From assembly GCA_037178675.1 (NCBI GenBank), contig JAYMGJ010000150.1, forward strand, positions 51,996 through 115,995: 64,000 bases of DNA, written 5' to 3'. Each line of letters begins with the position of its first letter. The first letter of the stretch is position 1. Source of the DNA: Scleroderma bovista. Lineage: Eukaryota > Basidiomycota > Agaricomycetes > Boletales > Sclerodermataceae. Position numbers and translations under genes: made by a program. The notes beneath the pieces are model-generated. The model was not told the origin of the DNA. It saw only the letters and a list, made by a program, of their open reading frames with translations, and did no database searches. This document shows, piece by piece, positions 8,224-35,896 of this stretch.

Positions 8224-8373
8224 GATATCAGTTAGAGTACCTCCGAATGCATTTAAGAAAAGATAGAGCGAGGTTCGAACTCACCCTTCAAAGTCTTCAA
8301 ATGGCTTGGTCTGGCGCTCGGCCATGCGTCCGTTCGGAGCGTTCGTCATGCTCCGGAGTTCAAACCGACCACC

Positions 8374-10542: not shown

Positions 10543-10597
10543 ATATGTAGCAGTAGATCACCGGGTATGTCTAATCAGCTGTGTGGTGTGTCGACAG

Positions 10598-10686
10598 GTC
10601 ACTTTGCCGGAGTGGTTAACGGGATCGCCTGCTAACAGCCAAGCGGTTGGGCTTTGCCCGCGAGTGTTCGAATCGCTCAGGTGACG
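10598..10686 (+). tRNA. tRNA-Ser(GCT) with a probable 7-nt intron
   Basis: The acceptor stem GTCACTT pairs with AGGTGAC, one G-T wobble allowed. The D-stem is CCG/CGG around GAGTGGTTAA. The anticodon stem ATCGC pairs with GCGGT only if about 7 nt after CTGCTA are removed, giving loop CTGCTAA with anticodon GCT. There is a long class II variable arm (GGGC-TTT-GCCC). The T-arm is GAGTG-TTCGAAT-CGCTC and the discriminator base is G. All are serine features. It reads AGC and AGT codons. The intron position, one base 3' of the anticodon, is the canonical eukaryotic one. Confidence 0.9.
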
Positions 10687-10761
10687 ACTTTTTGTTGCTC
10701 TTTCGTCCGCTGTCTGAACAGCAATTTCATGCCACTCGATATCCAACTTTGACAGACAACC

Positions 10762-15958: not shown

Positions 15959-15985
15959 GCCGTGTTATACGGTCAGCGGACGATG

Positions 15986-16003
15986 ACAATCGGCCGTGCT
16001 ACA
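15986..16003 (+). repeat. Left terminal inverted repeat of the KDZ composite
   Basis: ACAATCGGCCGTGCTACA, identical over 18 bp to the reverse complement of 35879-35896. It lies 28 bp beyond the stop codon of the truncated hAT gene. Confidence 0.75.
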
Positions 16004-16254
16004 CGGGCTGGCGGAAGTGAGGCTTATGACTAGAGCTTTGCCGTATCACAGGGGTCAGCCCCCAACAGCATTGTCACCAAGTGACAACGGTGGGCCCATG
16101 GCTCTGTTGTCATCACGGGGTAGGGTGAAAGTCTTAAGCCGGACAAATGGGTGTCGTCATGAAAATACTCGGGCTGAGAGGAGTAGCATACCAATAGAAT
16201 AAGTGAGCCAGTACGCAATGGAGGCAGTGGGGTGAAATCTGACGGCAGCAATAA

Positions 16255-16465
16255 CACCATAGTGAGCCGGTCAATCAGCATTGCGGCATGGTCAACAGTG
16301 CGGCAAAGTCAACACTCCGGCATGTTCAACGAGATGATGTGCCGATGAGATGTTGTGCCGCTGATATGCAGTGCCGCTGATATGTGGTGCCGACGATATG
16401 TGGTGCCGGGTGTTATGTGTCGGCCGCATCTATTGCTGCATCAATTTAGTGCCGACGGTTCCTCA
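16255..16465. repeat. Short degenerate TGCCG-word array, left subterminal
   Basis: About a dozen irregular units of 15-20 bp, of the types GTGCCGMTGATATG and CGGCAWRGTCAACA, the first on one strand and the second on the other. The word is the same as in the arrays at 20.2-22.7, 31.3 and 34.8 kb. Candidate transposase-binding subterminal repeats. Confidence 0.6.
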
Positions 16466-16514
16466 TGCCGGATCTTGGCCTAACGGTAGTTACTTAACAC
16501 TATATGCACGGCGA

Positions 16515-17080
16515 TACATCTATATAGAGGACATAGTATCTAGGGCCTAATGGGTATACAGGGAGATCAACTTTGTGGCCCAACGCACTCAATGGGACAC
16601 CTATCCACATGCCTTCCCAACTATATAGTTGTTCCCGCATTGAGGGCTTGTTTAATCCTCTGGGACACCCCATTCATGGCTTGTCACTTTAAAATGTACT
16701 TGCAAGGTTTGCCTGCATAGCTAGATAACACCTCTGCTAGGGCCTGCCCAATGCTATGGGATACCATGGCCATTGCCTGTCAGACTGAGCTGGGCGCACT
16801 GACTATAAATGACGCTGTCTCCAGGGCTTGCCCAGAGTTATGGGACACCACACCTGTGGCTAGCACCCCTTAAAGGTACAGTCTCTGCACAGCCCATTGG
16901 AATGCAAGGGACAATAGTTCCATGGCCCTTTGGTAAGAAAGGGACTCTGTTGTTACAGCCTGATCAGAGCCCGAAACACACTATTCCTCTGGCCTGCCAA
17001 CAGAAATGGCAAACCATATTTAGGGCCTGATGCAAAGCACGGGACACTGGCACTGCAGCCCTCCTACTCACTCCTATTTG
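16515..17080 (+). repeat. Long direct repeat, left copy
   Basis: Clearly similar, in the same orientation, to 35043-35545. Shared landmarks in order are CTAGGGCCT, GAGGGCTTG...TAAT...CTCTGGGACACC, TTCATRGCYTGTCACTTT, AGATAACACCT, CAATGCTATGGGA and AGCCCATTGGAA. Divergence is considerable, perhaps a quarter of positions. It contains repeated GGGACACC words and no gene. Confidence 0.7.
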
Positions 17081-17723
17081 TTGGGCTCTATAATAGAATA
17101 GAGAACACTATATCCAGGGCCTCCTGCTCTTATAGATGATACGGCACCTGGGGCTGTTATGTAATCATGGGACACCATCATATGGGGCTTGACACATTGT
17201 GTGACACCACTTTAGCGGCGTGCCTTGGGAACTGCAGGAGGCGGGGCCTACTCTGCTACTTCTAGCCCCTTGGCCGCAATTCCATGGCTACCCTGCTGCT
17301 TTGGCCGCCATGCTGCTAACAGTCCTTCGGCAGCAGCGGCTATCCCTGGTTCTCTGGCCGCATTGCTGTGGCATACCTTTCTTTTGCCGTGATACCGCGG
17401 CTGTACTTGTCATAGTGGAGGCCACCACTGCCGCCCGGCCATGATTGGTTACAGCCATCACAGCCGCAAACTTGACGACCGGCATAAGGTATCAACTTGC
17501 GGCACCCATTGTATTGGAAGATGCGGACGACACCTCCACCCAGACATGTGCTATTCCCATTCATGCCGATGTGTTCCCTGTGTGATTTCTGCCTCATTGT
17601 TAACCTGGCCGGGTGTTGCAGCCGCTTTGGCCGGCAACATTATATCACATGTGTCGCTTTGGCCGATATTTGATTAACCAATTATTGTTGTGATGAACAT
17701 ATATGTAGGTATTCATACAATGT

Positions 17724-18508
17724 TTACCTACCACCCAAAGACTCCTCCCATTTCTGCCGCAATGCATTTGGTGCACGGGTTAGCATCTCAATGTCCTCCA
17801 TCCTTTTTGCACAATGCTGCATCACCTCCATATGATATTTGAGGGCATTGTCCGAGCTCCGCAACATATTGTCGCAGAAGTACCGTGCATTTGACAAGGC
17901 CTCGTCGGAGGTATACCCAACGGTGAGTAGAATGGTGACCTTTCTATCAGCAACCTTGGAAAAGCTTTAGTATCTAACACAACACGAATAAGGGAGCATA
18001 CCAGGTCCGGCGGAAAGAATGCCTCTGCCTCCGATACCATGTCCCGCAGCGGCCGCGTGCTGTACCCTGCCATACATGGGCCGTGGCCATTTACCCACCA
18101 CGAGTTTGCCACTTGAAGCGTACTTGGAACCTGGACTTCGGCGGCCTTCGCATGATAGACGTTCAACTGTCGCATTGCCGCATACAGTCTTGCCGGCGGC
18201 AGATCTTCTAGTACGACCATTCTGTGCACCCTGCTCGCCATCATTGGCAATATCATCTTCGCACCCATAGCCTGGCATGCGGCAAGCACACGTTCTAAAT
18301 TTGCCTGGGGGCTCATGAGTGTGTTAATCAAATGTAATCATTCTCCACTTACCACTTCCGTTTGTACGTTTGCATACCATTCAGCTGTGGCCAGCATCCC
18401 CTCGGGCTGTTGTTGAACCGCGTGCACCATCCGTCGAAAGCGGACTCCAACGTATTGCAATACCATGGACAGTTCGCAGGTTTCGCGCAGTTCGGATGTG
18501 GTATTCAT
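17724..18508 (-). CDS. Unknown element-borne protein, head-to-head with the TET/JBP gene
   Basis: Exons 18508-18353, 18304-18002 and 17954-17724 join in phase 0 to 229 residues. I do not recognise a family. The protein is mostly helical in appearance, with Leu/Met/Ala-rich stretches (LERVLAACQAMGAK, RLYAAMRQLNVYHAKAAEV, MEVMQHCAKRMEDIEML), no signal peptide and no membrane segment. A Trp/Gly/Cys-containing segment (NSWWVNGHGPCMAGYS) sits in the middle. Its start is 275 bp from the divergent TET/JBP start, so a shared promoter and joint expression are likely. It could be an accessory or structural partner of the dioxygenase or transposase; that is inference from position only. Intact frame and clean introns argue against decay. 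Confidence 0.7.
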
Positions 18509-18783
18509 GATTGATGGTGTGATGGCCGATTCGCCCTAAGCCTTATAACATTCAGGTAATCAATGTTCTCACGGTCCACATGTCACCTGATGCATAATTA
18601 CCACATTGTGCAACCGGGCATGTGTTGTTTCGCACCGGCCAATCGCCGATCAGCCTTGTTTAGTGGATCTAGCCGAGAATGGAATGTGTTGCATTGCCGT
18701 TTGCAAACAGATGTCCGCAGGATGCCGCACATCCCCCACTAAAATTTTTACTCCCCACATTGTCAAAAGTCGTCCTGTTTCCA

Positions 18784-20047
18784 ATGGCCGGTGCAAATGC
18801 CGTGCCATCCAACTATACTTTGTCTGACATCATGGCATCATATATGCGGCGCCGCTTCCTGAATGAAGCATTCCCAGACTTAAATTCCCCCACCCCGGAA
18901 ACACTTCTGTCCCTGCCGGTGGACGCAACTGTAGCCATGAACCAAATTGTATCCACCATCACACAGGCATACCATAATCGGAGTGAGCCAATTCTTTTAT
19001 AGTTCTATTATCCCTTGCTTGATATCCGCTGAAGTTTCGTGCGGCATTGACTTGATTAGGTTGTCTGAAAGCCTCGGACCAATGCAATCCGGAACAAATG
19101 AGCAACAGGAGATTAGGGTCCTCTGTAGACATCCTTCCTCTTTGACTGGGACCCTTTCCCGGCCCACCATTATTCTGGGAGAAGGTGACACAATTGCATT
19201 GTGGTATCTTCCCGGAGCTCTAGCTCCCTGCATCCAAGTATGGTATCATTCCACTCTCATTGTCCACTGTTGAGGCCTTTGTTTCTAGGAGCACATCGCG
19301 GCATCCATCGATTCACTTGCAGATCCACTGGAAGAGAGTATTACTAATCAATCATGGCGTACAACACACCAGTATTTCAAGGATGACGTGGATATTTTCG
19401 GGTGCTTGGAATTCTCTCCGGCACGGCACATGCTCGGCCATTCTGTGAGTACCTTCTTCTTTTGACAATGCACTTGTTTGATCTTCTGCTAGACCCCCAA
19501 TGACATTCCGGGGGTGTCCAAGGCTTTGGCCGGTCCTACCGGCTATCAATGGAGCAAGGATATATGTCTTCCGTCGGCCATACTTTCAGGTGTTCTTTCT
19601 ATTATCCATCCGTCTCTATACGATGCCGGCCACCTTGCCATGCAACGCTTGAATGACTGGGCGACCGGCCATGATCCCGGAATGCTGGCGGCACTTGAAA
19701 ATTGGTCCACTGTCTTCACCAATATCTCGCTAATTGTCAATCGAAGTACCCCCCTCCACAGGGACCCACACTCTCGAGCAGATTGGTATGACATGCTAGT
19801 CAGTGTCGGTAATTATGATGATTGTGCACTGCACATTCCCAGTCTTGGGATTCAGGTATTGTACAATCCCGGCACTGTCGTTGCATTTTCCGGCCGGCTC
19901 TTTCGGCACGGCGTCAACGAGGTTGACGGAGCGAGGTGCTGTTTGGCGTATTATATGAGGGATAATATTCACCATTGGTTGAGGGTGCCACGGCCTCTTG
20001 ATTGGGTGACGCCAGATAATGTCCGCAATGCACTGGTGAAGCATTGA
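18784..20047 (+). CDS. TET/JBP family 2-oxoglutarate/Fe(II) dioxygenase
   Basis: Four exons (18784-18982, 19035-19237, 19289-19444, 19493-20047) join to 370 residues. The C-terminal half is a double-stranded beta-helix dioxygenase of the basidiomycete TET/JBP type. Iron ligands are His275 and Asp277 in LHRDPHSRADWYDML, and His325 in LFRHGVNEV. The 2-oxoglutarate salt-bridge residue is Arg334 in GARCCLAYYMR. NPGTVVAFSGRLF is the usual strand before the distal His, and GEGDTIALWYLPG upstream is also typical. The family oxidises 5-methylcytosine (TET) or thymine (JBP) in DNA; fungal members studied act on 5-methylcytosine. All catalytic residues are present, so an active enzyme is expected. An upstream in-frame ATG at 18679 is possible. 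It lies inside the KDZ composite and shares a divergent promoter region with the 229-residue gene. Confidence 0.9.
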
Positions 20048-20224
20048 ATAATTAGCTTCCTGATATGATTGTTTGTTGTACTAAAATGTAATTCTGATGG
20101 TATGTAGTCCAAATTTGTTGGAAGTAGTTTGTAGTAGATACTATCCGAACGTGTGTTGTGCCGATGGGATGTAGTGCCGCTCGGCGAGCCCAAAGTCGAT
20201 TCCGGCATGATCACAATGATCCGG

Positions 20225-20515
20225 CTTGGTCAAGTGTAAACATTCAACAGGGCGGCACATTCATCATTCCAGCACAGTCAACACTCCGGCACAACGAACA
20301 ATGAGGCATAGTCAACACTCCGGCAGGATCGGCATTCCAGCACTGCCCACCATGCACCCTCACTCGGACATGACCGGCAGAGCAAGAAGTATTCCCGGGG
20401 GCGGCCAACGCGCATCAAGATGGAACCTACTGTCGACACTGAAAATGATGAGAAGCTCACACGAGTTGCATCAGCCTTGAGGAGAAACTGTCGCCGATGA
20501 GTGGTCCATATGATG
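20225..20515. repeat. CGGCA-word array and repeated segment
   Basis: CGGCA-word units (20225-20345) are followed by a segment of about 170 bp (20340-20515). That segment recurs at 21120-21325 and inverted at 21500-21700. It contains a short frame reading PTVDTENDEKL and may be the remains of a gene's last exon spread with the repeat. Confidence 0.6.
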
Positions 20516-22250
20516 ACTGTGCCGGACTGGTAATGGTGCCGGAGTGTTGACTGTGCCGGAGTGTTGACTGTGCCGGAGTGTTGACTGTGCCGGAGTGTTG
20601 ATTGGGCCGGAGTGTTGACTGGGCCGGACTGATGATGGTGCCGAATGGTTGATTGTGCCGACGGAGTGTTGATTGTGCCGACCTGTTGACTGCCGGGATG
20701 TGGATCCTGCCGGAGTGTTGACTGTGCCGCAAGGTTGATTGTGCCGGAGTATTGATTGTGCTGGCCTGTCAACATTACGGCAGAGTCAACACTGCGGCAC
20801 AATCAACCCTCCGGCACAATCACCGTTCTGGCTCAACATTGTGGCAGAGTCAACCCTGTGGCACAATCAACCATTCAGCACATTCATCATTCCGGCACAG
20901 TCAACAGTTCGGCACAATCAACAATTCGGCACTATCATCATTGTGGCACACATTGCCGGAAGCATCCTGACACGCCACTACACAACAGCATGATTGATGC
21001 TAGATTAGTTCACGCTGCCAGAATTATAATTGTGCCGAACTGTTGAATCTGCCGGAATGATAAATGTGCCGCACAATTACATGTGCCGGAGTACACAGCA
21101 ATTGGTGATGTTCACTCCATGGATGCCATTGCCGTTGAGGCACCGCACGCCTTCACTCGGACAGAACCAGCAGAGCAAGAGAGATGTGATCGCAGCTATT
21201 CCCGCGGGTGGTCAACGCGGATCAAGTTGGAACCGACTGTCGACACTGAAAATGATGAGAAGCTTGCACGAGCTGCATCAGCCTTGAGGAAAAACTGTTG
21301 CTGATGAGTGGTCCATATGCACCTGCAGAAGGATTTGAAAAGTAGCTGGGGAGGAAGAGAAGTGTACCCAGTGCAAGGAGAGAGATTTACTGTGTGCTGT
21401 CCAGGTCGAACACTCGACCTGGACAGCAGTAAATCTCTCTCTTTGCACTGGGTACACTTCTCTTCCTTCCTAGCTACTTTTCAAATCCTTCTGCAGGTGC
21501 ATATGGACCACTCATTTGCGACGGTTTCTCCTCAAGGCTGATGCAGCTCCTGCGAGCTTCTCATCATTTTCAGTGTCGACAGTCAGTTCCAACTTGATCC
21601 GCATTGACCGCCCGCGGGAATAGCTGCGATCACATCTCTCTTGCTCTGCTGGTTCTGTCCGAGTGAAGGGCGTGCGGTGCCTCAACGGCAATGGCATCCA
21701 TGGAGTGAACTTATCACCAATTGCTGTGTACTCTGGCACATGTAACTGTGCGGCACATTTATCATTCCGGCAGATTCAACAGTTCGGCAACATTATATTT
21801 CTGGCAATCTAGCATCAATCATGCTGTTGTGTAGTGGTGTGTCAAGATGCTTCTGGCAATGTGTGCCAATGGTGATAATGCCGAATTGGTGATTGTGCCG
21901 AACTGTTGACTGTGCCGGAATGATGAATGTGCTGAACGGTTGATTGTGCCACAGGGTTGACTCTGCCACAATGTTGAGCCAGAACGGTGATTGTGCCGGA
22001 GGGTTGATTGTGCCGCAGTGTTGACTCTGCCGTAATGTTGACAGGCCAGCACAATCAATACTCCGGCACAATCAACCTTGCGGCACAGTCAACACTCCGG
22101 CAGGATCCACATCCCGGCAGTCAACAGGCCGGCACAATCAACACTCCGTCGGCACAATCAACCCTTCGGCACCATCATTAGTCTGGCCCAGTCAACACTC
22201 CGGCACCATTACCAGTCCGGCACAGTCATCATTCCAGCACAGTCCTACCT
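20510..22250. repeat. Long palindrome built of TGCCG/CGGCA arrays
   Basis: The two arms of about 840-900 bp are reverse complements, with small indels and point changes. The centre is at 21411-21412, where GGTCGA and TCGACC face each other across 4 bp. The inner 250 bp of each arm is nonrepetitive sequence; outside it the arms are arrays of 15-20 bp units such as GTGCCGGAGTGTTGACT. Open frames on both strands are mirror translations of the repeat, not genes. Such a structure could extrude a cruciform, bind the transposase, or result from an inverted duplication during transposition. Confidence 0.85.
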
Positions 22251-22256
22251 CAGAGC

Positions 22257-22720
22257 GTGCTCGACCTGGACAGCTTGTGCCGCAGTGTTGACTCTGCCGT
22301 AATGTTGACAGGCCAGTACAATCAATACTCCGGCACAATCAACCTTGCGGCACAGTCAACACTCCGGCAGGATCCACATCCCGGCAGTCAACAGGCCGGC
22401 ACAATCAACACTCCGTCGGCACCATCATTAGTCTGGCCCAGTCAACACTCCGGCACACTCAACCCTCCGGCACAGGCAACATTGCGGCCGAGCCAACACT
22501 GCGGCACAATCATCATTTCGGCACAATCACCATTCTGGCTCAACATTGCGGCAGAGTCAGCCCTCCGGCACAATCAACCAATCAACCATTCGGCACAATC
22601 ATCATTCCGGCACAGTCAACATTCCGGCACAATCAACAATTCGGCATTTCGGCACATCATCATTGCGGCACACGCTGCTGGAATTCGGCACCATCCTGAC
22701 ACGCCGCTACTACACAACAG
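22257..22720. repeat. Third, partial copy of the palindrome arm
   Basis: It starts with the palindrome-centre word TCGACCTGGACAG and repeats the right-arm array in the same orientation, with extra units, up to GCCGCTACTACACAACAGCATG. It is more divergent than the two arms are from each other. Confidence 0.7.
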
Positions 22721-23151
22721 CATGATTGATGCAGTGAACTATGGCACATATGTTATAGCTAGCTGTTGCACCGGCACACAATGGTTTCTAGCTGCGGTAG
22801 TTGATTGTTATCAATGCCAGCAGTCATGGAACTACGAGGACCATGGCCGGTAGGCCCATGTTTGCACATCTTCCCTTGGCAGATTTATATTTACATATTG
22901 GCCGAAGGGTGTTCATGCATGGCATTCAATTGCTGCTGGTGCATGGCTTTGCCATTGCGGCTACCAGCGAATCTATGTGCCACTGTCCATGACCCTCCCA
23001 TTCCATCATCCATTCATTCCAAGGTATGCACCCCATAAATACCTTGCAGTTGCACCTTGTTTTTTCCACTAACAGCCACTTGATGATCCGTTTCAAATAT
23101 GTCCTCTTTGCATACCATATAGCGGTATTTGATGCCGATGGTCAATGCCAA
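22721..23151. other. Spacer between array and transposase 3' end
   Basis: No gene recognised. It is probably the 3' UTR of the minus-strand KDZ gene; no further coding segment could be supported. Confidence 0.3.
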
Positions 23152-26100
23152 TCATACACAACCAAGTCTACCATACATTTGACATTGCTTTGCTGCATAG
23201 CATGCTCTCCCCATCTCTCCGCTCATATTAGCCTCCTCCTTCTGATCTCTCCAAAGTGTTTCCCTATACGAAAGAAATTGTCTTGTCCACGTGGCTTCAC
23301 ATGTCAATAGTTTTACCTCTTCGTCCCACCTGTCTCGCAATGCTTTCGCCCTCAACCAATGCACCCGGTAAACTATACATGTCAGCCGGTGTTAACATGA
23401 GGAGCAATCATCTTACATTCAGACATCCAATCATTGACCTCTGTATCCCGCGGCACATCCATTGTCCAAAACCAGGCCAAAGTGTCATCCCTATGACCCC
23501 TTGCATTTGGGTCGGCAATGGTTGCACTGATCTTTAGGTCTTCTTTCCTCAACATTTTGTATCGGTTCAATGTGTTGCCACTTGCATTCAATGCTATCAT
23601 TTGTTTCCGGCACCGACGATATATTGCCGCATGCCGCTGCACTTTCACATCGGCACTACCCACCTTCCCCCAGGCCCTCGTAGTCATATTGTATGTCCCG
23701 GCATGTCTGACATCGGTCCGGAAGATGACTGCCTTGTGTGCCAGCGAAACCCTTAGTTCATGTAGAGCATCGTTGGCCTGACCTTCCCTCAATCGTAACT
23801 CCTGATCCACCATGGTTAAAAGCCCCAACCTATCGGCTTGCTGCATCCCCAGGTACGACGGCAAGGGCAGTACCACAGCATCCGAGTAGTTGGGATCTTG
23901 TGGGTGGAATGTGTCTGAAAATACATCTTCACCATCACCTTCATCGATGTCCGTTGTGGAAATGAGATTATCCGAGATGTCCTCATTCCAATCTTCGCCT
24001 AGAAATTGGGAAGCTGATTCACAGAGCCGATCAATTTGCATCTGCAGGCGGTCCTGCCGGCGGGCAATAGACAACCTTTGTGTTTCCGTTGCCCTTGCAT
24101 GAATGTGGCGGACATCTATGGCCAAAATAATTTGTGATTCTTCGGCTTTCAATACCCTTGCCATCCATGTTGCTGCCCCACGCATACGACCATCCGGTCC
24201 CTGATTACTTATAATATCCATTTCGATCGACTTAGTTGTTTGAGCTGTCATTATAATACATCAAATTCGTTTGAAATCAGCCAAGCAAGTAAATACCTTT
24301 TTCCAGCTGCACCTCAAATATGTCCATTGATTTTGGATCAGTAACCCTATTCTCCAAAGCCGATTTCTCTTGCTGTGCCCAAAGCTCATGCAACTCGACC
24401 GGAACCCTTATATCAAGCTCCGCAAATGCTCCTTCCGCGGACATCAGTGCCTCTTGAGCATTCTTCAATTTTCTTTTCAGGGCGATGGCTGTGCAATATG
24501 TCGTCGGCATACTTCACCCAAAATCTGCAAGATATTGTGATACCACTCACGCATCCGCACCATCTTTAAGAAGTTGTTGTCATTCATTTGAAAATCAAGC
24601 AGCTCCTGTCTATGCGGCGTTGCCATTCCGCGGGCCGATGGCGAAATGATGTTAAGAGAGGACCAGAGAGTCTCCATAATTTCACCATCGACGCGGCCTA
24701 CACCAGAAATGAAATTGGGAGCATATCGGGTGAAACATTCTGCCTTGTGACCATGTACATGCCAGAGCCCAATGCTAGGTTGAATCCATAGCCCACATGG
24801 TAAGGATATAAAATTGTTTGCTTCTAGCCGGCGCTTTAGGTTTTTGCTGTATTGGCAATTGATGTCATAAAAGGTTATGACTTTTTGTTGCGGATCCATC
24901 CCATGTTGCACGGCATGTGCCAGAGCATAATCCATATTTACCTGCCTATCTTCCTGTTAGGGTGGAATGCATGCAACATGTCGGCACATACTGCTCTCCC
25001 TTCTGAAAGTCAACCATTGCATGGGGTACAAAGCATCCATGCCGCGCACATGCACACCCGCCAATTCCAGTAGATGCCAGCTGATTTCTTTTAGCATTTG
25101 CCTGGTTTACTGCTCGATGGTTGCTACAGTCAGATTTCTGTGAATTCCATTACAATGCTGAACCATATTGTAAACATGTGCAATCACAAACCTCGACCCG
25201 GTTCAATGTTCCGGCCAGATAATCCTTATATTGCGGCATTGTAACCATGAATCCCATTCCGTCCATGAGCCAAACTTCATTAGCTGAATTCTTTGGCCGC
25301 ATATGCTCGGCCTTGAAGTTTCCATCCATCACGATGGTCCTAGAATATTTCCACCTATATCATGCAGCTGCTCAATAAGTACAAGTAAAAATAAAACATT
25401 ACTTACTCCGAGAGGTCTACATCTTCACTGGATGGAATGTTTACTCCTGGTTGTGGGCATGCCGGACAGAACAGCACCAATTCCCCCCTCTTGGGATCAG
25501 GAGATCCTGGATGAAAACCTTGCCATTTTAACAGCTTTAACAGCCTCCACATCCTCGACACCCTGAGTAGCTCTCTGTATCTGTTCTTGGATCAGTGTTG
25601 GTGGTGTCATCGGGTCCTTAATATCATGCTTTGAACTCACCGGTACAAGGCCAGGAAATGCATTGGATGTGACTCGCCGAAGCTTGCTGTAATAATTCAT
25701 GGCAGAGGTGCCGCACTCCACATTATCCATAATGAAGTCATCCAATACTTGGAAGGTGAATACAGTCCTAGGTTCCTTTGTAGTTGCCGGGAAGAGTCCT
25801 GCTTTGACCAACTGCAAATGCGAAGCTCCTGCATCTGGACAGTTACAATACCTCACATCGCAAAAATGTACCCCAGATCTATGCACTACAGTTAGGCAAG
25901 ACCTGTCCGTTCCTCCAGAAAGATGATGTGGTCTTGGTTGGTCCTGAATATCCTCCCATTCATCCTCAACATCACCAGCAATGTCCTCACCATCCATCCC
26001 GCCATTCGGACACGGATCCCCACCATGGCCGAGGTGTACCACCAACCCAGCCTTCTAAATGAGTTGTTGCTGTATGCCACGTAGAATTGATGACTCACCA

Positions 26101-26674
26101 GTCGTAACGATGATTCCTCAAAGAATGTACCGTTCCATTGGTCCACCCGGTGGAAGGGCCGCAACTTGTGTTCCTTTCTGCAACAGGAACTGCAGAGCAA
26201 GGGCCGGTGGATGCATTCGGCGCATCTGTACGTGCCATCTCCTTGACACAACATGCAGACCCTTGGGTGAGGGGGTGCCTCCATGTCCAGAAGGACCTGG
26301 AGGTACCTCTGCTTGTATGGCAACCATGCCAATAAGTAACTGTCCTATTATGCCTTCAGGAGGACATGGCAAGTGCAGGATCGGAATAAATCACACACCT
26401 GATTCTTTGACACACCTGTTCTCTTTCGGGGTGGAAGATCATCCATGGAAATGTATGGCTGGCCATCATCTGGAAACAGTTGGGATTGTTCTAATCCTAT
26501 AGATGCTGACTGGGTCGGAGTGTCATTTGAAGGAGCTTTTCCATGACGGGCCTTCTTTCGGGGCGTTGCCTTCACCATCTTATCAATAGATCCCCTCCTT
26601 GATTTGAATGCCTGCCATGTTACATGAACCACCGGAGTAGAGCTACCAGCAGGTTGTATCTTGGACTTTGCCAT
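23152..26674 (-). CDS. KDZ (Kyakuja-Dileera-Zisupton) transposase with CxC2 cysteine cluster
   Basis: Ten exons join in frame to 1013 residues: 26674-26399, 26344-26099, 26051-25641, 25585-25407, 25339-25192, 25137-24992, 24945-24551, 24488-24297, 24244-23417, 23372-23152. A basic N-terminus leads into a CxC2-type zinc cluster with cysteines 122, 125, 133, 136, 143, 146 and 147, then HRVDQWNGTFFEESSLRLAGL. A second Cys pair group is FCPACPQPG. The RNase H-like core has D376 (VMDGNF), SDCSNHRAVNQANA, the CACARHGCFVP cluster, D496 (YDINCQY), HVHGHKAECF and E557/E560 (GRVDGEIMETLW). The C-terminal helical part includes DQELRLREGQANDALHELR. All conserved blocks are intact, so the enzyme may be active. 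It catalyses cut-and-paste DNA transposition in the nucleus. The intron between exons 7 and 8 was fixed by the consensus donor GTGAGT and frame. Confidence 0.93.
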
Positions 26675-27095
26675 GAGTGGTATCTGATGAGGAAATCCCT
26701 GCACAAAGTCTTTCCACATTGTATCTCACTGAAGCCTCATTGAAACAGCATGGACAGTGATCGGAAAGGGATCTTTGGATCTGCCGATTTGGATCTAGCT
26801 TTTGTAATATGGACTTGAAGATCAGGCACCAATGCAAAAATCCCATATATGGTGGCCGCTACTGAATTAGATCCTAAGTTAAAGTCCGGAAATAGCTTGT
26901 TAGCTGCCGAACAACATAGCCGGCCCCAGAAGTAGCTAGCTCACCAATGGATTTTCCAAAAGAGGTCGGCGTGGAGGAATTGAACACTAATTGACATGGG
27001 AGAAACAATAGCTCGGGAATCCTTCAACAAAGTGTCCGGGACTTCTCTAGCACAGCACCACTCAAAAAAGTATCTAAGTCTACTCAACATACAGC
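26675..27095. promoter_or_regulatory. Divergent promoter region, KDZ transposase and 615-residue gene
   Basis: 421 bp between two outward-facing start codons with no coding exon. Both genes should be transcribed from here. I see no convincing individual promoter element. Confidence 0.5.
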
Positions 27096-29489
27096 ATGGC
27101 CCGCAGTCGTTCATCCAGCAGATCTATGGAGAATCCTGATACAGAAGATGAGCAAGACCATTCTTCTGACTCGTCGGGCACAGAGGCACCACAAAATGTG
27201 GTAAAAACAAAACTCCGGGATGATGAGGTCGAGGTCCTTGAGGAAGCCTTGGAAGACTGGAAGGCAGCTGACAGCAACCAAAGGAAAGGTATGAAGAATG
27301 CCATGAAGGCAAAAATCAAAAATCTCCCTGCCAATAGCACACTCAAAGGACACGAATGGGAGAAGAAAAAAAAAGTGCGCCCCATTTCCATAACTTCACA
27401 TGGACTACTGATGCATCAGTGATATCAGGCAATTAAAAATTGGTTGTATAACCACAGCCGAGCCCGTGCCCGAAAGGCCCTAGTAAAGTATGGACGTAGG
27501 TGGACTGCCAGATCAGTCGTAATGAAGTCGAAGAAAAAAGAAATCGAAGCCGAATTCGAACGGGCCGGAATTGCCCAAGGAAGCACAGGCATGATTAAAG
27601 GCTACCAAAAGGCGGTGGGATGCATCATGGGGAAGCTCACCCAGGAGGAAAGGGATGCTGCGGCAAAGCAGGCTGATGAATGGAACGAGGAGCAGCCGCC
27701 GGCAGAGGTCCAGGCCGAGTAAGTTTGACATGTTATCTCGACAATTATTCATCTGCAAACAGAATGGCCGAGACAAAAGGCCGACAATATGTCAAACAGT
27801 TTGCGCAGGAAATGTGGCGGCAGTGTGGGATGCGGGTGGTTGTGATGGCGGCATGGAAGGGCCGGAATGGTCAGCCCATGATGGGAATGTATGTCACTTC
27901 TCACTTGTGGTATTTGTATACTCACATTCACAGGCATGACTTTAATTCGGCATTGGGACAAGGGAAGACCTTTGCCGATTGGGATGACATCAAGCACCAC
28001 TGGGATGCCTATGCACAGCAGGCCATAGGAGGGGAAGAACACGATGATAGCGATGAAGATGCCGGACCGACGCTCTGCCGGAAGAAAGGGCAGAAGAGGC
28101 CGCAAACTGTTTTACCAACAATGGAAGATGGCACACCAATGATTCCGATCATCCTCGATATGCAAGCATTGGAGAGAAAGGATGTTATGAGGACCTTTGT
28201 GACATGGCATTATCGTAAGTTCTTCCTTGTAAATAGACGGAGAATTGACCCCTTGCCGCAGGCAAGGCATGCGGCAAGCCAAGTGCCAGTGTTCCTTGGG
28301 CTGCCATACATGCAAAGACCGGTATCTACATTTCATCTGTGTACCTGCCGCGGCATTGGGAGTTCAAAGAGCCGACCCGGCTCACAAATCAGGAAGTTAC
28401 AAAGGTACTGGAATTCTGGCGCGATAGGCAAGTGACAGATCCGGAAGATGTACTGACATTTCACAAATGGAGAGATATGGATGGTGGATTACAAGATCCA
28501 GTATCAGATTGTGAGGACTCAGTGGCCGGAATGATAAGTGCAGCAAAGCCGCCCCTGAAAGGTTAGCTCTGAATACTTTTATCAACTTGTTTTGACTGGT
28601 TCAAAGAACCTGCGGCACGAGATGTGGAACTCGCAAGCAGTCGGAAGAGGCGGCGCACAATTGGTATGGATCTTTCAACCATGTTATGCAACCATTGACA
28701 TGCATAAAAGAAGAGGCCCCAGAGGAGAGGGAGTCCAGTGCAACAAACAAAAACCAATGCCGGTCAAACCAGGATGATGGTACGCCCCATCCGTATTCCA
28801 AGCATTTGATCCTCCTACATTTGGAACATCCCTGTCAGCAAGCCATACAACGCCCATTGAACAGCCTGGTCAGTTCCTTTGAATATTTTTGTTGTCAGAA
28901 TATGAAGTTTATATATAGAGGATGACTCAGATGGACATAATGCTAAGGAAAATGGTGCGTGGGGCTTGGTTTTGTTATGCCGGTGGGACCATCTTGACGA
29001 AGAGCATCAGCGGCACTGATGGCACGGCAGCCGGCCGAACCTAAACAGCAAGGTGGGTATTGGTCTCAATTACTTGGAAATGGCACGTATTCTCATATAA
29101 GAAAAAGCACATATGGATCCCGGCAACGTCAATGCTAATGGACCGATGAAGCCAAAGCCCCGGGTTAAAAAGAACACAGCCGATGCGCCAGTGGAATGTA
29201 AGTTTGCCTATTTCAATATCCATTTGAGCAATTCCGACAAATGATAGTTGGTGAATTAACTATGCATTCCATTGGCAACACAAATGGGATGGAGGGTGGT
29301 CGATCAGGGGATGATGATGCCACACACTCTGGAGGCAAGGGGAAGCGGGCTGCCAGCACACGCCGGATTGCCAGGGCTCAACATGTCAATGCCGTTGCCG
29401 GGCCTAGTCAACCGGAACGGCAAAGAAGGCGGCCAAAGCGGCCCGATGCCGATGTCCCTACGCCCAGCCCAAAGAGACGCCGCAAATAA
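27096..29489 (+). CDS. Unknown element-borne protein with homeodomain-like N-terminal region and basic tail
   Basis: Twelve exons join in frame to 615 residues: 27096-27374, 27429-27718, 27763-27888, 27934-28214, 28262-28561, 28607-28663, 28711-28779, 28839-28868, 28919-28954, 29011-29052, 29102-29197, 29248-29489. Residues about 40-105 look like a three-helix DNA-binding unit: EVEVLEEALEDWK as helix 1 and AIKNWLYNHSRARARK in the place of a homeodomain recognition helix (WFxNxRxK). This is a shape argument, not a confirmed family hit. The middle has W-rich segments (MWRQCGMRVVVMAAWKG, DWDDIKHHWDAY, RHWEFKEPTRLT). The C-terminus is strongly basic (RRRPKRP and KRRRK), as in nuclear proteins. 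It is divergent to the KDZ transposase. It might be a transposition accessory factor or regulator; function unknown. Confidence 0.75.
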
Positions 29490-29569
29490 TATACTTGTAG
29501 AATAATGCTATTGTCAAATCTGCCATGTCTTGTGCCGAAAGATTTTATTGCCGCACTACTGTAACAAAA

Positions 29570-30789
29570 CTACAGCTTGGAGGGATCTAATACTACCACA
29601 TCCTCAGGGTGATCGGACTCAATTATGTCACCATTCTCGCCAAGTCGGGCTGACCTAGCCAACATATCCCGCACATTTGCCAACATCGCTCTCCGGCACA
29701 TTTCCGATCTCCACAACCTGGCGGTGTCGAGCAACGTGTTTGCGTAATGAATGTAGGCCGCGATCATAGGGTGATCAAGGCCGGCATCGAGTGGGAGTAG
29801 GTCGGGCAAGTTCCTAGGAGGGACGGATGTAGCAACTTGCCTTGCAGAGGCCACTAGATGACAACTGATCAACTGATACTATGGATGAAGCCCAAGAGAG
29901 ACTTACATGAAAGCGCATCACTCTGGAATGGATCCAAATGCTCATGCAATGCATTAATCCTGTCCACCATCTCAAAATATTCCACTGGATGATTGTTAAA
30001 TACACATAATTCCTGCAGTAATACTGACTTACCATCCTCTGCATGCACGTGTTCCCGGAATCGTGCATGCGATCCAGATACAGCCTCAGGAGATGATTCT
30101 GCCTCCATTGGGGAGGTGGGAATCCGCTGGCTTGATGCCGGGCTAGATAGCGATGCCGGGCTCGATGGCGATGCCGGGAGCGATGGCGATGCCGGGCTGG
30201 ATGGTGATGCCGGGCTGGACGGTGATGCCGGGACTGAGGATGCCGGCATTGATGGGGATGACGTCCCAATACGTGGCACGTGCACTGGAGAGGGCGGGAT
30301 CCATGCGGCCATCGTGGGGGATGGCGACGGTGGCATCCATGCTTGCGGTTGGGTGCCTTGGGATGATGGCCGAACCGATGGGGTAGCTGGCATTGCTGCC
30401 GGGGGTGGCATTGATGCCTGCGACCGAATGGTGAGGGTAGACGGCACATTGGATGAACTGGCAGCGATTGGAGGCGACGGTGGCATCCAAGCCTGGGATC
30501 TAGTCGTGGGGGTTGCTGCACGCATCTCGTGTGCTGAGGGGCCAGGGAGGTTGATCGGAGCTGATTGCGAGGGGGCCGGTAACTGATTGTTTGCCGCTGT
30601 TGCTTGTCTGTTGCTGTCCCCAGACATTGCATCGTTGTTCCTCACAGACACATTTGTTTCACCTGTGCGCATCCCGTGGCGTGGGGGAGAGGGTGGCATC
30701 CAGTCCATGCTTGATGGCAGGCGTTCATCGACAATGGATGGAGGCGGGTGCCACACTGGCAGTGCAGGAATGGCTGATAACGATGTCAT
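29570..30789 (-). CDS. Pro/Ser-rich repeat protein, element-borne
   Basis: Exons 30789-29907 and 29853-29570 join to 388 residues. I recognise no family. The first two thirds are low complexity: MPPSP motifs recur about every 30 residues, and a coding minisatellite gives PASPSSPASPSSPASPSLP. The C-terminal third is ordered-looking (FNNHPVEYFEMVDRINALHEHL, then IAAYIHYANTLLDTARLW, CRRAMLANVRDMLARSARLG). The Pro-Ala-Ser repeats are encoded by CCGGCATCA, that is by the same TGCCG word that fills the noncoding arrays of this element. It is convergent with the 615-residue gene, 80 bp apart. It could be a disordered scaffold; function unknown. Confidence 0.7.
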
Positions 30790-31314
30790 GCAGATCAGCT
30801 CAGAGGAGAGAAATTACTCACTCAATTTCCGCGGACTTGCGCTATCAAATCTGACAGACTTAGGTGGCATAGCGGTAGCAAAGATGCAAGTTGACAAGAT
30901 GGAATTGACGTGGAATGGAAATCACAATTGAATGATTATATAATAATGGTTTCCATATATAGTTCATTTATCTCACCACTGGAAAGATTTGCTGATAGTG
31001 TGTTGTGCCAAAGGTATCGGCAAGTGCCGATGTTATACAAGTGCTGATGGTATTACAAATGTATGTCCTGCCGCTGGGGTGTGTGCCGATTGTCTACCGT
31101 ATGCATGTTCCAATGGAATGCTGTGCTGATTACAGTATGTTACCTCAATCAACACCTAATGCCGCCATCCACGGCAATTATAGATACTCTTGCTATTTAT
31201 GTATATCGGTAACATTGAAGAATTACTGCAAAGGTAAATCTTGCATTTGCCGGCGAAAGATTGGGATAGTATCATGTACATAGTGCCAATAGTGTGCTGT
31301 GTCACAAGTGTGAT
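30790..31314. other. Spacer with scattered TGCCG words
   Basis: No gene. A block at about 31130-31260 (ending in a GCCGGCG word) is repeated at about 31660-31810: both read TGATGCCGCCAT.CA.GGCAATTATAG, then a GTATAT.A segment and GGTAAAT. The two copies flank the 16-bp array, so the spacer is itself an imperfect direct duplication. Confidence 0.5.
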
Positions 31315-31475
31315 GTGCCGATAGTATGTAGTGCCGATGGTATGTAGTGCCGATGGTATGTAGTGCCGATGGTATGTAGTGCCGATGGTATGTAGTGCCG
31401 ATGGTATGTAGTGCCGATGGTATGTAGTGCCGATGGTATGTTGTGCCGATTGTATGTTGTGCCGATGTTGCTGTG
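31315..31475. repeat. 16-bp tandem array, unit GTGCCGATGGTATGTA
   Basis: Nine to ten units, the middle six perfect, with diverged units at both edges. The unit starts with the TGCCG word shared by all arrays of the composite. There are no spacers between units, so this is a minisatellite and not a CRISPR array. Confidence 0.9.
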
Positions 31476-31991
31476 CCGATAGTGTCTTGTGCGAATGGTT
31501 TGCAAGTGCCAATGTTATGCAAGTGCTGATCACTGTTGCAGCGGCATGGATGTAATGCCGCCGGTGGTTATGCCGATTGTATGTGCCGATGCAGTGCCGA
31601 GTGTATGTTCTCCCTTGTATGTTCTGCTGGTTGTGTTGTGCCAGTGGATTAAAAGTATGTTGCTCCTTCCAATACTTGATGCCGCCATACATGGCAATTA
31701 TAGTTACATCTGTAGGACATATCTAGCCTGCTCTTGGTATTCATGTATATCAGTAACGTTGAAAAGTTACTCCACAGGTAAATTTGGGATGTGCCGGCGA
31801 CATATTGGCAATGCATTCATGGCTGTGGTTGAGACCATTACTGGCATGTCTCTGACAGAGTTCTCAGGCTGTGTCAATGATTCACAAGGACAACTCTACA
31901 TGCATAAATATACTTTACAATGTGATGTATATGGTATACATGGAATAGGAAGCGGAAATTGTACAAAAGACGTAGGTATGATAAAAGAAAA
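31476..31991. other. Spacer with duplicated block
   Basis: It holds degenerate TGCCG units up to about 31610, then the second copy of the block described at 31130-31260, then AT-rich sequence that is probably the 3' UTR of the minus-strand gene ending at 31992. Confidence 0.4.
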
Positions 31992-33958
31992 TTAGTCCGT
32001 TTCCATTTGCACACCGGCATCATGCCCGGCATCGGCATCGGAACTCCCAATCTCCATATCGGATGCCGGCCCAACATCTCCATCTTCCGGCGGGCTGACC
32101 TCGATTGCTGGAATATTGCCGGTCTCTATGGTTGCGGCCACTTCATCACAAATCGCTGTCAACAACACAATCTTGTGATCAGTAGCATATGGCTTGGTAA
32201 TTGACAGACTTACCTTTTGGTGGGGCCCAGTCGTAGCTATCACCAGTTGGCTTGCTGGCACCCCTTTCATCGACCAAGCCTGGAGTTGCCACCTCCAGAC
32301 TTGAGGCATTGTTGCGCAGCGCAACCTGCATACCATGGGTGCCGGGCGGCTCGCTCGAGCCATGTCGGGACGGATTGTTGGACGATGCCATTTCTTCCAG
32401 CATTGTGGTAGGCGCTAGTGCCAACGGGCTTGGCGGACTGGGGTGAGCGCACTGCGAGACCTCGGGACATGTTGAGTCAGATGCCGGCTGTGTCGGTGCG
32501 AATGCCTGCCGCGATGCCGGACGTTGAAGGTGGGATGGTGTTGGGAACAGCTGTTCCCGCATCGCTTCAACCACCTGCCGTAAGCTGGCGACTTCTCCGA
32601 GCGCGACGGCCAACCTGTCATTTGCTTCGTCCACCTTTCGTTCTGTTTCGGCCTGCTTTTCCCTCAAACGGACAACCTCCTCCTCGAGATCTTGTACATT
32701 GGAGGTATTTGTACTGTCTCCCGGTGTTGTGGGAGGGTTCGTGCCACTGCCGGCGGCCGTTGACGATGGACTTGCCGTCCTCGATGTCTTCCCTAGCCAT
32801 GCTGGAGTATTGATCAGTACCCCATCAAAAACTGGATGGAATATCGATAGAAATAATATTAAATTGTTCGAATAATGAACGACTTACTTGGTTTCCTGGG
32901 CGGATTGGCCGCTGCTGGTGCCGGGGTCTGACGTTGGCTTTTTGCACGCTGTGACCTTCCTCGGTTGAGCGTTGAGGGCGCAGATGGTGAACGCCGACGC
33001 GGTGCAGGTTTCCTCGGTGCTTGTGAACGCGACCTTGACCTCGCTCTGACTGCCGTCATCATACTGCATGCAATCTTGCTGCAGCAACATTGCCAGCAAG
33101 CACGGCCTGGGTTCGCTGCACACCGTCGATCTCGCTGTACGCACTTGATGCAGCGATCCTTGTCATCCACCCACTCATAGCCTGTGTCTGGTGTCTGCAT
33201 GTCGCGAACGTTTGGCCTTGGTCGCTTTGGCCGTGGTTGCGATGAGGCTTCTTCATCATCACCGTCGCTGTTGATCGTTGCGACGGATTGGGCACGCTTC
33301 CTCGGCTTGCGACTGCGACTGCGGCCCCTAGGCACCTCATCATCCTCGATGGCACGGCTTCCTTCTGGCACTGCTTGTGAGTCCTCAGTTTCACTGGGCT
33401 CACCTACTTGGCCACGACTGCCTTGCACCTCTGTCTCCTTTACCCCCGATGGTCCTGCCACTGCATTGTTCCCCGACGGCTCTACCGCTCTCCTCTTTCC
33501 CTTGTCCACCTTCTTCTGCGGCTTGCCTAGTTGGAACCAGGGATGGTCCCGGATATCGTGGTCCGTGGCGTTAACGATGTCCGGGAAGTGAGGCCACTTC
33601 CCTGTCGACAGGATCACCTCTGGCGCCTCCATAAACTGGTCGGCAGCAACGATGATAGTCGGTATAATGAATCCTGCAGGTAACTCCTGCAGGACATTCT
33701 CGACCCGGCGCTATCATATCCTAATCAGTGAGTTGATTGATTGCAGATAAATTTGCCACGCACCACCTGGGCCCAGATAGTTGACACTGCTTCCGACCAT
33801 ACACCCTTCTCCCGTGTGCTTCTCAAGCCATCAATCCGGCCTTGAATTATTTCAGCGGCCTGGGCGACGACTTCTTCTGCAGTGAGGGACGTAGCCGTTG
33901 ACACGTCCTCTTGAACGGATGAGGCGGAGACGAACTGAGAACCTTCTGAAGTTTCCAT
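31992..33958 (-). CDS. Zn(II)2Cys6-like cluster and coiled-coil protein, element-borne
   Basis: Exons 33958-33767, 33710-32888, 32801-32214 and 32155-31992 join in frame to 588 residues. A helical N-terminus (TAEEVVAQAAEIIQ) and a WPHFPDIVNATDHDIRD segment precede a Lys/Arg-rich, Ser-rich region with nuclear-signal character. Cysteines 251, 254, 261, 269, 272 and 279 are spaced C-x2-C-x6-C-x7-C-x2-C-x6-C, the fungal Zn(II)2Cys6 spacing, with two extra cysteines (273, 274). Unlike usual transcription factors the cluster is central and is followed by an Arg/Ser-rich stretch. A leucine-zipper-like coiled coil follows (VQDLEEEVVRLREKQAETE...LRQVVEAMREQL), which could mediate dimerisation. The C-terminus is acidic. 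It is probably a nuclear DNA- or RNA-binding regulator of the element; target unknown. Confidence 0.75.
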
Positions 33959-34727
33959 ATAGACTGTAAGGATGTGGAAATGGTAAAGCAGTGGTTGAGA
34001 GGAAGAACTGGGTCCGATTGCCGTGCGGCCTGAAGGATGTTCAACGTATTATATAAGCATTTCACACCACAACATGTTTGCATTGTGGTCGCACACCAAA
34101 GTGGACTAAATCAAATATAGGTTAATAATTCAGCCACAAGTCCGACCAATCATTGTCCTGACAATTCGGCTAATGAACCACACTGCCGCATTTCATATTG
34201 CATGATGGCCGCGTTTCTATTGCTTGTGATTGGCTGTCACAGTGCATTGTCCCATCACAATAATAAGGGATCTCGGATCGGCATTATGATTTGCCTTATT
34301 TTGGAGTGTGTCTCTCGGGGAACAATCGATGCGGCATGTATTAACACAGCCGCAGCTTGAGAAAGGGATCAATGCCGCATGTCAGTCATTGCGGTACGGC
34401 CATCATTAATTTAATGTTATCATTGCGGTACTTATTCGCACAGCCACCAGCCTGGCTGCCACCGGCCAGTATGTCAGTGGCAAATGCCGGTGTCCACAAC
34501 CGTGCCGACACTGCCACACGGCACGGTCATTCCCATATTGCCGCACATGCAGCATGATGGCCGCACGGCTATTACTCCAGCACGTTTGTGATTCTCGGCA
34601 AGGTATTGCGGCACCTGCGCGATAGCTGCACAACCATTACCAGTATTTATGTTGTGCCGTTCTTGTAATGCCGCAATTCTATTATGCCGATGGTAGATTG
34701 CTGATGACATGTTGTGCCGCTGCTGTC
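33959..34727. other. Spacer upstream of the Zn-cluster gene
   Basis: No coding exon. It should hold the promoter of the minus-strand gene starting at 33958. Between about 34320 and 34640 there are many TTGCGG/CCGCAA and TGCCG words without a regular period. Confidence 0.4.
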
Positions 34728-34752
34728 GTCGGTTCAAATCCGACATTGCCCG
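34728..34752 (+). other. tRNA T-arm-like sequence with perfect pol III B box
   Basis: GTCGG-TTCAAAT-CCGAC forms a perfect T-arm, followed by an acceptor-like ATTGCCCG. GGTTCAAATCC at 34731-34741 matches the B-box consensus GGTTCRANNCC exactly. No matching 5' acceptor or anticodon arm is found upstream, so this is a tRNA 3'-half or the head of a tRNA-derived short repeat, not a working tRNA. Confidence 0.5.
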
Positions 34753-34760
34753 AAAAACAA

Positions 34761-34970
34761 TTCTGCCGACAGTGTGTTCTGCCGACAGCCTTGTTCTGCC
34801 GACAGCCTTGTTCTGCCGACAGTGTGTTCTGCCGACAGCCTTGTTCTGCCGCCAGCGTTGTTCTGCCGACAACGTGTTCTGCTGACAGCCTTGTTCTGTC
34901 GACAGTGTGTTCTGCCGACAGCCTTGTTCTGCCGACAGACAGCCTTGTTCTGCCGACAGTGTGTTCTGCC
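34761..34970. repeat. Tandem array of TTCTGCCGACAG units
   Basis: About fourteen units of 14-16 bp, of two alternating types ending GTGTG or CCTTG. The TGCCG word is in nearly every unit. It sits just inside the right long direct repeat. Confidence 0.85.
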
Positions 34971-35042
34971 AATGCCATGTAGTGCCGATTGTGTCGTGCC
35001 ACACCTGGCTTACCGCTACTTTAGAGAAGACCAGATGCCCGG

Positions 35043-35545
35043 CCCTACATTTATACAAGGGATTAGTTCTAAGGGCCTGCTGTGTATATTGGGAGGCCAA
35101 ACATTATGGCCGATCATACTGAAGGGGAAGCATATCAGCTGGCCTTCCCATCTAGCTAGGTGTCCCCAGAAGGAGGGCTTGCTTAATGCTCTGGGACACC
35201 GCATTCATAGCCTGTCACTTTGAAGTGTACTGCAAGGCCCTCCCATATAGGTAGATAACACCTTTCTGAGGGCCCACCTAATGCTATGGGACATTGTACC
35301 TATTGTTGCCATGTGCCCTGCACATAATAGATGAAACTGGCTCCAGGGCCTACTCATAGTCATGGGACACCAATCCCATGGCTGGGTATTCTTAAAGGTA
35401 CACCATGCATGCAGCCCATTGGAAAGCACGGGATGCTGTTTCTTTGGCTGGCCCTGCAACAAGAAAGGGACACCAAAGGTACAGCCCAATGCAAAGCACA
35501 GGACACCAATACCACAGCCAAATGCAAAGCATGGGACACTGGTAC
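35043..35545 (+). repeat. Long direct repeat, right copy
   Basis: Same orientation as 16515-17080, with the shared landmarks listed there. Both copies follow a TGCCG-word array and precede GGCCGCA-rich sequence, so a module of array plus repeat appears to have been duplicated in direct orientation. Confidence 0.7.
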
Positions 35546-35878
35546 AGAGGCCCTTCTATTGACTCCCGTCCACAGGCTAGCCGCATTGCAGCACTTACTA
35601 CCGTCCTTTTGCCGAAATGCTGCGGCAAGCCCCCTGCAATCCTCGGCCTGAATCTGCGGCATATAGTCCTCTGGCCGCATGCCGCAGCTCCCTTGCCGCA
35701 TTAGGTCCTATTGCCACAGGCCATATCCTGATCTAGTGTACTAGTGTGTCAGCCCACCAATATTACTTGGTGACAACCTTTCCATGAGCCACCAATATGG
35801 CATGGTGAAACACCTTACCATTAGCCCACTCGTATGACATGGGGATGCACCATGGCTGGGCCCTATCTCAGCTGGTCA

Positions 35879-35896
35879 TGTAGCACGGCCGATTGT
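35879..35896 (-). repeat. Right terminal inverted repeat of the KDZ composite
   Basis: Reverse complement of 15986-16003, 18 of 18 identical. The sequence outside (GTAAGGAATTAAC) is unlike the left flank. Confidence 0.75.

Follow-up and report, generated by a model that had tools for sequence, protein, structure and literature searches.

The window analysed here is a 64-kb stretch of the Scleroderma bovista genome (contig C150, positions 51996-115995; G000), taken from an assembly of 51.8 Mb in 850 contigs. It contains a transposon of about 20 kb that carries a KDZ transposase, a TET/JBP dioxygenase and four accessory genes, the coordinates of which are collected in Table 1. Six spliced genes, named A to F, lie between the arms of an 18-bp inverted repeat, and all of them are open in our gene models. 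This agrees with the initial annotation of the DNA, which had described six spliced, in-frame genes bracketed by an exact 18-bp inverted repeat; each arm is present where it was placed and is single-copy within the window. The models were built with a small gene finder of our own, and exon borders are approximate, especially at the gene ends and at the C-terminus of D. An additional first exon of gene E is likely at about 30870-30820 (MPPKSVRFDSASPRK).

Gene C encodes a complete KDZ transposase, as first annotated. The KDZ domain (PF18758) is matched over its full profile (1-217 of 217, E 1.8e-42) and is preceded by a CxC2 cluster (PF18803, E 1.9e-24), the order found in intact Pleurotus KDZ elements according to the available text of PMC7641404. 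Gene B matches Tet_JBP (E 4.4e-18) and aligns with CcTet (structure 7vpn) at 2.8e-35. The HxD pair and the distal H and R fall in register in this alignment, read by eye, so that the dioxygenase with all catalytic residues of the initial annotation is upheld. By the same reading, gene B has H-R-D with Ser at +5 (CcTET Gly331) and Asp at +11 (CcTET Asp337). The available text of Kojima 2025 (PMC12730594) characterizes AG-type, or Kyakuja, TETs by HxD, Gly or Ser at CcTET position 331 and Asp at position 337, and the predicted product of gene B carries this combination, which places it by sequence among the AG-type TET/JBP dioxygenases.

Table 1 Features of the transposon in the window (positions refer to the 64-kb stretch).
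Feature	Position	Strand	Description
Whole transposon	15939..36516	.	From copy comparison; includes the 572-bp solo-LTR insertion, ~20.0 kb without the LTR
Left terminus	15939..15953	+	GAGCCC followed by 9-bp ATGCACCTG, the outer inverted repeat at offset 6
Left subterminal 18-bp inverted repeat	15986..16003	+	ACAATCGGCCGTGCTACA
Left subterminal CGGCA/TGCCG array	16264..16440	.	
Gene A	17551..18508	-	258-aa (amino acid) model, 4 exons, head-to-head with TET; zero Pfam match at E<=0.1
Gene B, TET/JBP dioxygenase	18784..20047	+	370-aa model, 4 exons, CcTET-like (AG type)
Main CGGCA/TGCCG array	20080..22900	.	Separates the TET and KDZ 3' ends; 17-bp period, 385-nt inverted arms (95%)
Gene C, KDZ transposase with CxC2 cluster	22926..26719	-	1075-aa model, 11 exons
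Gene D	27126..29489	+	602-aa model, divergent from KDZ; basic C-terminus ending TPSPKRRRK
Gene E	29570..30789	-	372-aa model; Pro/Ser-rich; conserved C-terminal part ending LDPSKL
TGCCG array between genes E and F	31250..31700	.	16-bp period
Gene F	31992..33958	-	599-aa model; conserved N-terminal domain, Zn2Cys6-spaced cysteines, RS-rich and coiled-coil-like stretches
Right subterminal TGCCG array	34640..35020	.	16-17 bp period
Right subterminal 18-bp inverted repeat	35879..35896	-	Exact reverse complement of ACAATCGGCCGTGCTACA
Solo LTR (long terminal repeat)	35897..36468	+	~567 bp plus 5-bp duplication ATTGT, adjoining the right subterminal repeat
Right terminal 48 bp	36469..36516	-	End is GCATTATGTG

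Ends and copies of the element

The ends of the transposon were set by comparison with other copies in the genome, which are named by contig. A 215-bp piece from inside each end gave 94 (left) and 102 (right) candidates, of which 40 were scored for each; at least 40 scored copies, the window's included, exist per end, at identities of 96-100% on the left and 98-100% on the right. Thirteen other copies with both ends listed on one contig were compared with the window. In all 13, homology continues beyond the 18-bp repeat, by 47 bp on the left (starting GAGCCC) and by 48 bp on the right (ending TATGTG). This rules out the 18-bp repeat as the transposon end; it is subterminal, and the interval drawn between its arms in the initial annotation is too short by 47 bp at the left end and by 620 bp at the right end. 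The right 48 bp of the window copy are displaced by a 572-bp insertion with ATTGT on either side, which we identify as a solo LTR because of these flanks and of at least 39 other scored copies in the genome (92 candidates, 88-97% identity). An exact 7-bp target-site duplication (TSD) stands directly outside the ends in 4 of the 13 copies (ACCTGCC, CGGAAAC, GTCCCTC and TTAAGCT), and none was found at the ends of the other nine, nor by eye at those of the window copy.

The 13 copies range in size from 13.5 to 26.5 kb, and they share the same ends and a collinear gene content where undeleted, with main blocks about 94-99.6% identical. The single transposon unit of about 20 kb proposed at the outset is therefore real. 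All six genes were found in the other copies, save for deletions of KDZ and D in three of them. KDZ is fully deleted in C131 and mostly deleted in C19, and both of these copies have a truncated D and keep A, TET, E and F; in C216, KDZ is partly deleted. A further copy, C24, has an insertion inside KDZ. C19, which bears a perfect 7-bp TSD, may have been mobilized in trans or may have lost its KDZ once inserted. Judged by reading frames only, five of the 13 (C572, C727, C342, C120 and C556) keep all six models free of stops and frameshifts, and the remaining eight each carry at least one stop, frameshift or deletion. The search for further copies that had been suggested as a check on the annotation supports the shared gene content, but with breakpoints outside the 18-bp repeats.

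Accessory genes in divergent families

Elsewhere in this genome, divergent families likewise have A, D, E and F, the accessory genes, beside KDZ and TET genes. One such family, on contig C441 (pieces L040 and L041), shows all six genes. On L041, gene A is matched at 37% over 101 amino acids, 47% over 43 and 23% over 66 (2.8e-21), together with TET (9e-44) and the end of KDZ (5e-21). On L040, gene D is matched at 40% over 289 amino acids and 50% over 82 (6e-68), and gene F at 29% over 286 and 40% over 48 (2e-29), with the cysteine spacing seen in the window. Gene E of L040 is recognized by its C-terminus (32%, E 0.02), by a strand and place equal to those in the window, and by an N-terminal KxVRF motif, as in the likely first exon of the window gene. 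A third family, on C539 (L042), has KDZ (2e-161), D (1e-68), F (2e-20) and a truncated E of which the VRF-motif start remains, and C122 (L043) contains gene E at 30% (9e-7).

Linkage was assessed genome-wide with 150 TET hits (150 of 159 candidates scored) and with 150 of 166 KDZ matches (150 of 317 candidates scored), among which several families can be told apart by exon length. Gene A lies within 4 kb of TET in 108 of the 150 TET hits (96 head-to-head, 12 in tandem; 42 without), for an expectation of 2.3%, the share of the genome within 4 kb of an A hit. Among 139 D hits, a listed KDZ occurs within 8 kb in 79, head-to-head in 78 of these and at a median distance of 3.6 kb; TET occurs within 16 kb in 87 and F within 9 kb in 80, against expected fractions of 4.6, 9.3 and 4.3% for KDZ, TET and F. 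At least one of these partners accompanies 119 of the D hits, and 20 have none. Many of the linkage hits belong to the window's own family, and a few pairings are with a neighbouring element; 33 of the 44 D-KDZ-TET-F sets come from contigs other than the 11 marked as the window family. Gene blocks are flipped between families: F and D have opposite strands in the window family but share a strand in 19 of these 33 sets, and the A-TET block is inverted in C441. Some F hits in more distant families (E 0.002-0.01) were counted only for position. In a TET/KDZ family on C74, C127, C252, C324 and C491, no A was detected and D was matched only weakly; this family perhaps represents an older or different gene set.

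The six-gene set is conserved through divergent families of the same genome. Because homologues, mostly 30-50% identical, adjoin KDZ and TET in these families, sequence comparison marks the four accessory genes as part of the element lineage and not as chance cargo.

Genes A, D and F were scanned against Pfam as models and E by its main exon frame, with hits at E<=0.1 listed; none of the four matched a family over the cut-off. Homologues of gene A comprise 11 metagenome proteins covering 36-57% of it, and the five of these that were inspected look like intron read-through. Gene D has 25 homologues, distributed over Scleroderma citrinum (two, 74 and 68%), S. yunnanense (one), Pisolithus tinctorius (15), P. 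orientalis (six) and Melanogaster broomeanus (one, 36%). AlphaFold models of two of them (P0005 and P0001) have mean predicted local distance difference test (pLDDT) scores of 50 and 57, with the N-terminal helical region modelled best. Weak fold matches, all with Z below 8, liken the second helical region to HMG boxes and the C-terminal region to a GTF2I repeat and NRF1. Foldseek alone returned nothing at E<=0.001, and a PDB sequence search with gene D gave an unrelated protein as its best hit (E 0.2). The initial annotation had named a homeodomain-like gene with a basic tail; D has a basic C-terminus, and its homeodomain match in one model was not repeated in the second.

Gene F has three homologues, two in S. 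citrinum (47 and 51%) and one other. The D homologue P0001 and the F homologue P0027 come from contigs of equal size (433648), which suggests that they are linked in S. citrinum. The cysteines of gene F follow CX2CX6CX7CX2CX6C in the window, in L040 and in L042, as counted by eye. Zn2Cys6 zinc clusters have the spacing CX2CX6CX5-12CX2CX6-8C. The spacing fits, but no zinc-cluster family was among the Pfam hits at E<=0.1, and we therefore label F Zn2Cys6-like only. Of the Zn2Cys6-like gene with coiled coil noted in the initial annotation, the cysteine spacing and a coiled-coil-like stretch (by eye and from weak Pfam hits) are retained.

CpG decay, selection and repeat arrays

Decay at CpG sites was measured on this element only, in 14 copies compared outside the repeat arrays. 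Transitions occurred at 826 of 18562 CpG sites (4.45%) versus 129 of 89918 other C/G sites. With rates of 0.11-0.18% at CpA, CpT and CpC, the CpG rate is 25-42 times that at other cytosines. The two strands are equal (418/408), and the four contexts are similar (ACG 0.056, CCG 0.040, GCG 0.048, TCG 0.042), which rules out mutation at TCG of the repeat-induced point mutation (RIP) type as the cause. Single copies show CpG transitions of 0.4 to 12.8%, and no clearly protected stretch was found along the element. CpG observed/expected is 0.68-0.70 in the element versus 0.81-0.88 in the flanks, and the host genome contains four C5-methyltransferase matches, on three contigs. Such decay would be expected if the host methylated CpG sites and deamination followed, so that the TET enzyme would have a substrate. 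It suggests the presence of such a substrate, not protection of the element by TET.

Corrected for the mutation spectrum, omega among the copies is 0.59 for KDZ (P 0.002), 0.60 for TET (P 0.037) and 0.71 for F (P 0.013), with P values uncorrected for six tests; it is not significant for D (0.89), E (0.82) and A (1.24). Uncorrected nonsynonymous-to-synonymous ratios (A 0.73, TET 0.35, KDZ 0.36, D 0.59, E 0.48, F 0.42) had pointed to constraint on all six genes, a reading that fails for A, D and E after the CpG-spectrum correction.

The element is further marked by its CGGCA/TGCCG arrays. Within the 20.6-kb element there are 240 occurrences of the pentamer (80 of them exonic) versus 50 in the other 43.4 kb of the window, a density ten times that of the flank. 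Among intergenic element pentamers seen at least 60 times it is the most over-represented, at 8.1 times the dinucleotide expectation. In the largest array, deletions and rearrangements distinguish the copies.

Known elements and possible function

TET-bearing Kyakuja elements of Agaricomycetes, which combine a KDZ transposase and an AG-type TET/JBP in one element with 7-bp TSDs, are already published, together with the proposal that they escape methylation-based silencing; Boletales are among the five orders from which they are reported (Kojima 2025, PMC12730594, in the text available). The present element shares the KDZ and AG-type TET genes and, in the 4 copies named above, the 7-bp TSD. Its termini, GAG..GTG with a 9-bp outer and an 18-bp subterminal inverted repeat, differ from those of two Laccaria Kyakuja families, described in that source with 5'-CA..TG-3' termini and no terminal inverted repeats, and for this reason we file it as KDZ and probably Kyakuja. 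The CA..TG termini, known for two families, are perhaps not defining for Kyakuja. On balance, the evidence favours an autonomous cut-and-paste DNA transposon that has been active recently, carries a conserved six-gene set and belongs to the KDZ group, with Kyakuja as its most probable placement.

The available text on Kyakuja (PMC12730594) describes no further conserved genes, whereas four more are present here. Giant algal KDZ elements exceed 10 kb and reach up to 30 kb, with extra transcribed genes in many families and a transposase that is often broken, implying mobilization in trans (PMC12477816); the part of that source consulted leaves their gene content unspecified and describes no TET set, in contrast to the element in the window. 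In the KDZ and Kyakuja literature as far as examined, we did not find the six-gene set, its conservation, the CpG-decay record or the CGGCA arrays; absence from print is not claimed. In 2014, Iyer and colleagues reportedly described in PNAS the expansion of TET/JBP with KDZ in basidiomycetes, with an abstract said to name additional proteins, including one with a divergent HMG domain. Gene D may fit this description and may thus be known in kind. VANC of Vandal elements controls the silencing of its own element in a sequence-directed manner, acts in an element with expanded short motifs, and is not known to be a dioxygenase. The likeness to the present element would lie in the control of self-silencing and in the expanded motifs, here with TET and a zinc-cluster-like protein, and no sequence relation is claimed. 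Plant Vandal (MuDR) elements with anti-silencing proteins are noted in the available text of Kojima 2025 (PMC12730594).

We infer, as the more likely reading, that the six genes form a transposition and anti-silencing set. The 18-bp subterminal repeat and the short outer repeat would direct the KDZ protein to cut at the element ends. Copies would be repressed through CpG methylation by the host, and TET would oxidize 5-methylcytosine on element DNA, such that young copies stay expressible. The HMG-like, basic D and the zinc-cluster-like F would serve as element-specific DNA-binding proteins that bring the transposase, TET or both to element DNA, possibly via the CGGCA/TGCCG arrays in the case of F. 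Gene A would work with TET, and E would act as a scaffold. Of the cargo system that the initial annotation had seen as controlling the element's own modification, membership in the element lineage is supported by the divergent-family homologues, and the joint function is postulated here. Zinc-cluster proteins bind CGG triplets, which, with the cysteine spacing and coiled-coil-like stretch of F, makes the arrays its candidate target. Two observations weigh against this link: CpGs in the array motif decay like other CpGs, and no CGG array was seen in the C441 pieces L040 and L041. In its full form, the proposal that F, with D, reads the arrays and brings TET to the element's own DNA, with A and E as partners, in a targeted self-demethylation whose gene set is conserved across divergent families, is tentative, and we hold it to be unlikely.

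Alternatively, A, D, E and F could be transposition co-factors engaged in end binding, bending and transpososome assembly of a 20-kb element, leaving methylation to TET alone. We regard this non-epigenetic role as a serious possibility, given the almost uniform head-to-head arrangement of D and KDZ (78 of 79 linked cases), the suitability of the HMG-like and basic parts of D for DNA bending (weak fold matches) and the presence of arrays near both element ends; the frequent adjacency of A to TET (108 of 150) instead hints at a role with the dioxygenase. The oxidation products may themselves matter: instead of erasing methylation, TET could make oxidized bases, such as 5-hydroxymethylcytosine (5hmC) or products of N6-methyladenine (6mA), which the transposase or D and F would recognize as a positive mark. 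CcTET is active on 5-methylcytosine and 6mA in DNA (Kojima 2025, PMC12730594, available text), and the CpG decay suggests that methylation persists in the copies, but demethylation needs fewer steps than mark reading, and we consider such a mark unlikely.

Passive carriage of captured host genes, accidental or of service to the host, would fit the lack of D within 8 kb in 71 of the 150 listed KDZ hits and the finding that constraint on A, D and E is not significant when close copies are compared. It is made highly improbable by the recurrence of the accessory genes at mostly 30-50% identity beside KDZ or TET in divergent families, and by the many copies of D elsewhere, with 15 clusters in P. 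tinctorius and 6 in P. orientalis. Least credible, to the point of near dismissal, is the view that unrelated short repeats happen to enclose a cluster of separate genes or nested elements. Nested insertions do occur, as the solo LTR and the extra DNA inserted in copies C76 and C24 illustrate, and 9 of 13 copies have no TSD, but the same ends and collinear genes of the 13 copies speak for one unit.

Transposon-borne TETs are known, but not how they would act on the right DNA. The partner genes, the candidate motif and the CpG-decay record make the arms race between transposons and methylation testable in a mushroom-forming fungus. The four protein families of the accessory genes, which lack a Pfam match over the cut-off, probably work with TET or KDZ.

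Outside the element, the left flank at 15579-15938 resembles part of a hAT-type transposase gene (TTTDMWSDPNRDSYMAVTG); Pfam gave zero matches for the piece 15579-15812, and an Rfam scan of the window likewise gave none. Further left, host genes for the peroxin Pex24p, a PIG-V mannosyltransferase and dynamitin occupy 5232-11851. To the right, duplicated FAD_binding_8 genes at 37279-39090 and 50521-52319 form an inverted pair with 80-94% complementary blocks, 11-14 kb apart.

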